Shown here: piece after piece, positions 5,588-5,767 of the stretch
Position numbering within the stretch: position 1 is the first letter of the stretch
Layout of the letters: each line of letters opens with the position of its first letter
Assembly: GCF_000168975.1 (NCBI RefSeq)
Contig: NZ_AAUW01000003.1
Location: forward strand, 248,001 to 312,000
From: Roseibium aggregatum IAM 12614
GTDB lineage: Bacteria > Pseudomonadota > Alphaproteobacteria > Rhizobiales > Stappiaceae
Direction: 5' to 3'
Length of the DNA stretch: 64,000 bases
Translations under genes and position numbers: made by a program
Notes under the pieces: model-generated
Database searches by the model: none
The model's input: the letters and a program-made list of their open reading frames with translations, nothing else
Told to the model about the DNA's origin: nothing

Positions 5588-5605
5588 TATCTGTTGAGAT
5601 TTGAT

Positions 5606-5611
5606 TAGATT
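5606..5611 (+). promoter_or_regulatory. -10-like hexamer of a possible junction promoter for the bridge RNA
   Basis: TAGATT at 5606-5611 resembles a -10 box. In the excised circle the right end abuts the left end and supplies TTGCTT exactly 17 bp upstream, a plausible -35. This would create a promoter only in the circular form, as known for IS110/IS621 elements. It is an inference from sequence spacing. Confidence 0.45.
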
Positions 5612-5612
5612 G

Positions 5613-5767
5613 GTCTTGGGAGGGCCGGTTGCTGCCCTCCCAAGTGGGCCGGAGACCGTACCATCCTGGGTACTCGGCAAGTCCGTTCGAAGCCAGGTTC
5701 CCGGTCCACTTTCCAACTTATCCCGAATGGTTGCTCGCGCAAGAGTGCGTAGATAAGGCAGGGACAG
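5613..5767 (+). ncRNA. Bridge RNA of the IS110-family element, copy 1
   Basis: Three stem-loops fill the non-coding left end. (1) A perfect 10-bp hairpin, 5615-5624 with 5635-5644. (2) A target-binding loop closed by 5644-5657 pairing with 5696-5709. Its left guide CCATCCT (5661-5667) equals the left target strand, and its right guide TCGAAG (5687-5692) is complementary to the right target CTTCGA. (3) A donor-binding loop with inner stem 5736-5740/5745-5749. Its guides are ATGGTTGCT (5727-5735), identical to the right-end junction, and AGATAAG (5751-5757), complementary to the left end CTTATCT. Order and logic match the IS621 bridge RNA. The exact 5' and 3' ends are not known. The 3' end runs into the transposase ribosome-binding site. 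Confidence 0.9.

Follow-up and report, generated by a model that had tools for sequence, protein, structure and literature searches.

The window, the whole 64,000-nucleotide (nt) stretch of Roseibium aggregatum IAM 12614 DNA analyzed here, carries an intact IS110-family element of 1138 bp, including one CT core, at positions 5588–6725 of the forward strand. The best explanation for this element, and very probably the correct one, is that it belongs to the IS110 group and that a bridge RNA guides its 314-amino-acid (aa) recombinase to a REP-like palindrome. This reading is carried by the anatomy of the element, the matches between guides and junctions, their co-variation among relatives, and the copies found at the predicted sites.

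The noncoding parts of the element comprise 180 nt to the left of the recombinase gene and 13 nt to the right of its stop codon. This is the layout of the IS110 group, in which a long noncoding left end holds the RNA and the right end is short; the IS1111 group shows the reverse. The left junction reads GGCCCATC-CT-TATCTG and the right junction ATGGTTG-CT-TCGAGACG. Inspection by eye revealed no long subterminal inverted repeats that stand out in the element ends. The following features were assigned in the window:

5579–5587 (+), left part of the interrupted REP-like palindrome, GCCCATCCT, starting at about 5579
5586–5587 (+), CT core of the left junction, read from the sequence: target CCCATC-CT, then element TATCTG
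5768–6712 (+), IS110 recombinase gene, 314 aa, from profile matches; putative catalytic residues D11, E55, D97, D100, and S236
6724–6725 (+), CT core of the right junction, read from the sequence: element ATGGTTG-CT, then target TCGAGACG
6726–6759 (+), right part of the same palindrome, TCGAGACGGGCCTTTGGCCCTCCTCAGGATGAGG, seen when the flanks are joined
39740–40877 (−), second complete copy in the window, with the same target type (GGCCATCCT / TCGAGACAGCGC) and nine substitutions relative to the first copy

The family assignment made in the first-pass annotation was borne out by profile searches. The recombinase scored 226 bits against NF033542 (RNA-guided IS110-family transposase; cut-off, 140), and both Pfam domains, PF01548 and PF02371, were above their cut-offs. 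It thus combines a DEDD RuvC-like domain with a Transposase_20 domain containing a catalytic serine, as is characteristic of the IS110 group. The putative catalytic residues D11, E55, D97, D100, and S236 either align with those of solved recombinases or are invariant. The nearest solved structures are ISCro4 and IS621, with the catalytic residues kept; ISCro4 (PDB 9t56) is the best match among them and covers the full-length recombinase, a likeness that is a sequence relation only.

The left end holds a 5′ stem-loop, a target-binding loop, and a donor-binding loop, and four guides can be read in it:

5617–5642 (+), 5′ stem-loop with a 9-bp stem, from the fold; stem also in the 67% relative
5643–5710 (+), target-binding loop with closing stem 5643–5652/5701–5710 plus 5654–5657/5696–5699, from fold and covariation
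5661–5667 (+), left target guide (LTG), CCATCCT, matching the element's flank
5686–5692 (+), right target guide (RTG), TTCGAAG, pairing with CTTCGAG by six pairs and one G-U
5721–5764 (+), donor-binding loop with a CCC/GGG base and inner hairpin 5736–5740/5745–5749, from fold and covariation
5727–5735 (+), left donor guide (LDG), ATGGTTGCT, identical to the element's right end
5751–5757 (+), right donor guide (RDG), AGATAAG, reverse complement of the left end CTTATCT

The LTG match spans 7 nt, base 5660 (A) being a mismatch to the flank C, and all four guide matches include the CT core, as expected of bridge RNA guides. The four guides proposed in the first-pass annotation, with all their coordinates, proved right base for base, and the RTG gains a seventh position, T5686, through a G-U wobble. 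Where the RNA lies in the left end and on which strand, how its loops are arranged, and which guide is which were each tested and held.

When folded as a single sequence, the region 5612–5775 gave −71.2 kcal/mol (z = −2.57; 3 of 200 shuffles were as stable), with the 5′ stem-loop at 5617–5642 followed by the long target-loop stem and the donor loop. The stem that had been drawn at 5644–5657 with 5696–5709 was predicted in essentially the same form. A consensus of 16 relatives contained 28 pairs, 16 of them with compensatory changes on both sides, and both sides had changed in 10 of the 12 pairs of the target-loop closing stem. Pairing was possible in 94.4% of the cells of this consensus, compared with 76.5% after shuffling and at most 45% after sliding; the alignment was built without regard to structure, and it also served as the input for predicting the consensus structure. 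The 5′ stem-loop comes from the single-sequence fold and falls outside the 16-sequence consensus. In the single-sequence fold, part of the LTG is sequestered by a GUACC/GGGUAC hairpin that is missing from the 67% relative. No Rfam family matched here; the lone hit below E = 1, RAGATH-25, was under threshold and lay outside the element.

The genome contains 10 complete copies of the element, each of 1138 bp, and one copy truncated at a contig end. Across the complete copies the left end corresponding to 5588–5767 is 100% identical; they vary at 0 to 9 positions, every one of which lies within the recombinase gene. This near-identity points to recent activity without proving it, and the element is probably a recently active IS110-group insertion sequence. 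All copies read ...CATCCT / TATCTG ... ATGGTTGCT / TCGAGAC..., and joining the flanks restores a palindrome of ~46 bp (GCGGCCCATCCTTCGAGACG...CTCCTCAGGATGAGG), which is found intact across the genus. An orthologous empty site was sought in other Roseibium genomes and only the intact repeat was found, so that the case for precise insertion is built on the reconstructed repeat.

All 11 insertions, the truncated copy included, have one orientation and sit at the same point of the palindrome, where the guides point. Since a tandem REP array lies nearby (23383–24425), one might attribute the copies to duplication of segments that contain REPs and not to targeted transposition. We consider this extremely unlikely: the flanks of every copy differ outside the palindrome, with no flank homology beyond the repeat, and even the inner sequence of the palindrome varies. 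The copies of the element are thus independent insertions. In the array itself, a 224-bp unit is repeated ~4.6 times at 90% similarity, each unit bearing the REP-like palindrome in both orientations; the array holds nine intact CCATCCTTCGAG sites and no inserted element. A similar array is present in another Roseibium genome (G025:C17:496797-497987).

Available sites greatly outnumber the insertions. The 14-mer CCATCCTTCGAGAC occurs at 73 uninterrupted genomic sites, compared with 0 for the reversed control, and CATCCTTCGAGA occurs 79 times. Arm A of the palindrome (CATCCT-TCGAGA) accounts for 11/11 insertions and 79 empty sites. Arm B (CATCCT-GAGGAG, CATCCTGAGGAG), which has the left half and core of arm A but not its right half, is present at 69 sites and received none of the 11 insertions. 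Arm B can therefore serve as a natural control for the right target guide and suggests that the right half is needed for use. In one copy (L007) the target is CTCATCCT, which departs from the LTG at a single position. Among Roseibium genomes, the number of exact target sites ranges from 0 to 92 and is patchy across the genus; both genomes bearing the element are rich in them (73 and 59). As a separate observation, this variation in palindrome number suggests recent expansion or loss in some lineages.

Co-variation between guides and junctions was analyzed in relatives parsed from plasmids and one genome per species; those with two locatable ends were retained, giving 35 diverse elements that come from many phyla. 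The RTG matched the element's own right flank at 6.8/7 positions, versus 4.7 for the flanks of other elements, and the match was perfect over 7 nt in 29 of the 35. For the LTG the values were 5.9/8 for own and 5.2 for foreign flanks, a weaker co-variation than for the RTG. The LDG matched the own right end at 6.97/7, versus 5.9 for foreign ends, across ten right-end types; here the same maximized search was applied to own and foreign ends. None of 20,000 permutations reached the observed value in any of the three comparisons. The right end was located via the donor guide, and the target-guide tests are therefore independent of that guide. A simple motif search for the LDG missed or misplaced the guide in some relatives, and such loci were set aside unscored; in one misplaced case (L041), the guide ACAGCCGCT is visible by eye after CCCGG.

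The RDG co-varies with the left end through natural changes. Left end and RDG are CTTATCT and AGATAAG both here and in Roseibium sp. MMSF_3544, CTTATCT and GATAAG in L076, CTTATAC and GTATAAG in a 39%-identical relative in the same genome (L012), and CTTGTGTCT and CACAAG in Luteimonas; elsewhere, CTTGT occurs with ACAAG or CAAG. L012 (G000:C39:181080-181979) is itself an IS110 element with its own matching guides, AAAAAAG for the flank CTTTTTT, ACCGTTG for the right end, and GTATAAG for the left end, so that this cell harbors two differently programmed systems. This genome also contains a more distant IS110-family transposase (about 25% identical) in seven copies, L016–L022.

These data bear on two other explanations. 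Guides are short, and the ten near-identical copies are not independent, so the matches might be 6- to 9-nt words that agree by coincidence or by inheritance from repetitive or co-descending ends and flanks. The permutation over 35 diverse elements, the many perfect 7-nt RTG matches, and the tracking of right-end types by the LDG refute this idea, to which we give practically no credence. In line with the first-pass annotation, the guide matches exceed chance: all 11 genomic insertions were found here to obey the guides, and own junctions score far above permuted ones across the 35 relatives. It was also borne out that the loops co-vary with flanking targets and ends in homologues.

The second explanation is an ordinary protein-specified insertion sequence, in which recognition of the REP site falls to the recombinase itself and the left end serves as no more than a structured 5′ untranslated region (UTR) that regulates the gene. 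Because a single target is common to all copies in this genome, guide and target are inseparable within it, and for a related IS110 element, ISPpu9, both a regulatory 5′ UTR and small RNAs with a regulatory role are reported (PMC8450116). Nevertheless, relatives aimed at other targets have guides altered to match, with scores far exceeding those of permuted pairs, and the guides are read in the internal loops of the RNA, not in the recombinase protein. Protein-specified targeting is therefore very improbable, and guidance by the bridge RNA is retained.

By analogy with the published scheme for IS621 (PMC11208160) and ISEc21 (PMC11187229), transcription, binding, catalysis, and the order of steps may be as follows. 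Upon excision, the ends would join as ATGGTTG-CT-TATCT, creating a putative sigma-70-type promoter across the joint (TTGCTT, 17 bp, TAGATT). In the excised circle, the −35-like TTGCTT would be formed by 6721–6725 joined to 5588, and the putative −10 box TAGATT lies at 5606–5611 (+). This candidate promoter is weak compared with the consensus (3/6 and 4/6); TA...T at spacer 17 was found in 7/35 relatives, compared with 0 to 1 at other spacers, which is a weak peak. A bridge RNA of ~150 nt, starting at about 5617, would be transcribed and bound by the 314-aa DEDD/serine recombinase. The joined ends would occupy the donor loop of this RNA (ATGGTTGCT, AGATAAG), and one arm of the REP-like palindrome, CCATC-CT-TCGAG, would occupy the target loop (CCATCCT, TTCGAAG). 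Strand exchange at the common CT would then insert the element in a single orientation and duplicate nothing of the target except the core.

The first-pass annotation had implied that the system is new. This did not stand, since published IS110-group elements already carry left-end bridge RNAs with the same guide order (PMC11208160, PMC11187229), and IS110 elements targeting REP palindromes, with the IS621 case cited among them, were described by 2006 (PMC1525189). The element resembles IS621 of Escherichia coli (PMC11208160) in its IS110-group DEDD recombinase, the RNA in the left end with 5′ stem-loop, target loop, and donor loop, the guide order LTG-RTG-LDG-RDG, the CT core in all four pairings, and the REP-palindrome target; the candidate promoter at the joined ends would be a further likeness. 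It differs in its distant protein (phmmer E = 1e-31), in its guides and REP type, and in its 7-nt RDG against CTTATCT. ISRm19, ISPpu9, ISPpu10, and ISPa11 (PMC1525189) are likewise IS110-family elements present only in REP palindromes, in other hosts and other repeats; ISPa11 is of the IS1111 type with the RNA downstream (PMC11187229), unlike the element studied here.

The best database relative of the recombinase is a 67%-identical protein of Roseibium sp. MMSF_3544, which belongs to the same element in a genome of the same genus (loci L047 and L036, with identical flanks). Its donor-loop guides and right end are identical to those described here and its target is of the same palindrome type; its left flank is CACATCCT versus CCCATCCT here, its RTG is CTCGAAG (full match) versus TTCGAAG, and its left-end spacer has diverged. 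A search of 60 further genomes, mainly from this genus and order, turned up a close (67%) relative in just one. Single-sequence scans of genome contigs and viral contigs gave no close relatives, and neither plasmids nor about 400 genomes of the order yielded a near copy. In the literature searched, no paper was found that mentions Roseibium together with IS110. ISMno7-like and other IS110 elements from many phyla (about 40–47% identity) share the layout and guide rules; they differ in having the left end CTTGTATCT with the guide ACAAG or CAAG, mostly the right end ACAGTTGCT, and other targets.

The donor ends of the Roseibium branch (CTTATCT with a 7-nt RDG, right end ATGGTTGCT) thus depart from the family norm (CTTGTATCT with a 4- to 5-nt guide, ACAGTTGCT). 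With its donor loop shifted in this way and its target loop locked on an abundant palindrome, this branch might be orthogonal to any other bridge recombinases sharing its cell, a suggestion that we put forward tentatively and regard as close to evenly balanced. The shifted ends are natural variation worth testing for orthogonality, and are offered as that only. It is well supported that the element follows the IS110/IS621 bridge RNA design published in 2024, of which it is a clear further example; the design itself is known, and the known mechanism of such systems is unchanged by it. With its compact 314-aa protein and four confidently read guides, it is a candidate programmable recombinase for testing. 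For the family, it provides an independent, multicopy natural case of bridge RNA targeting, with 11 guide-obeying insertions, dozens of unused identical targets, and the control given by arm B.
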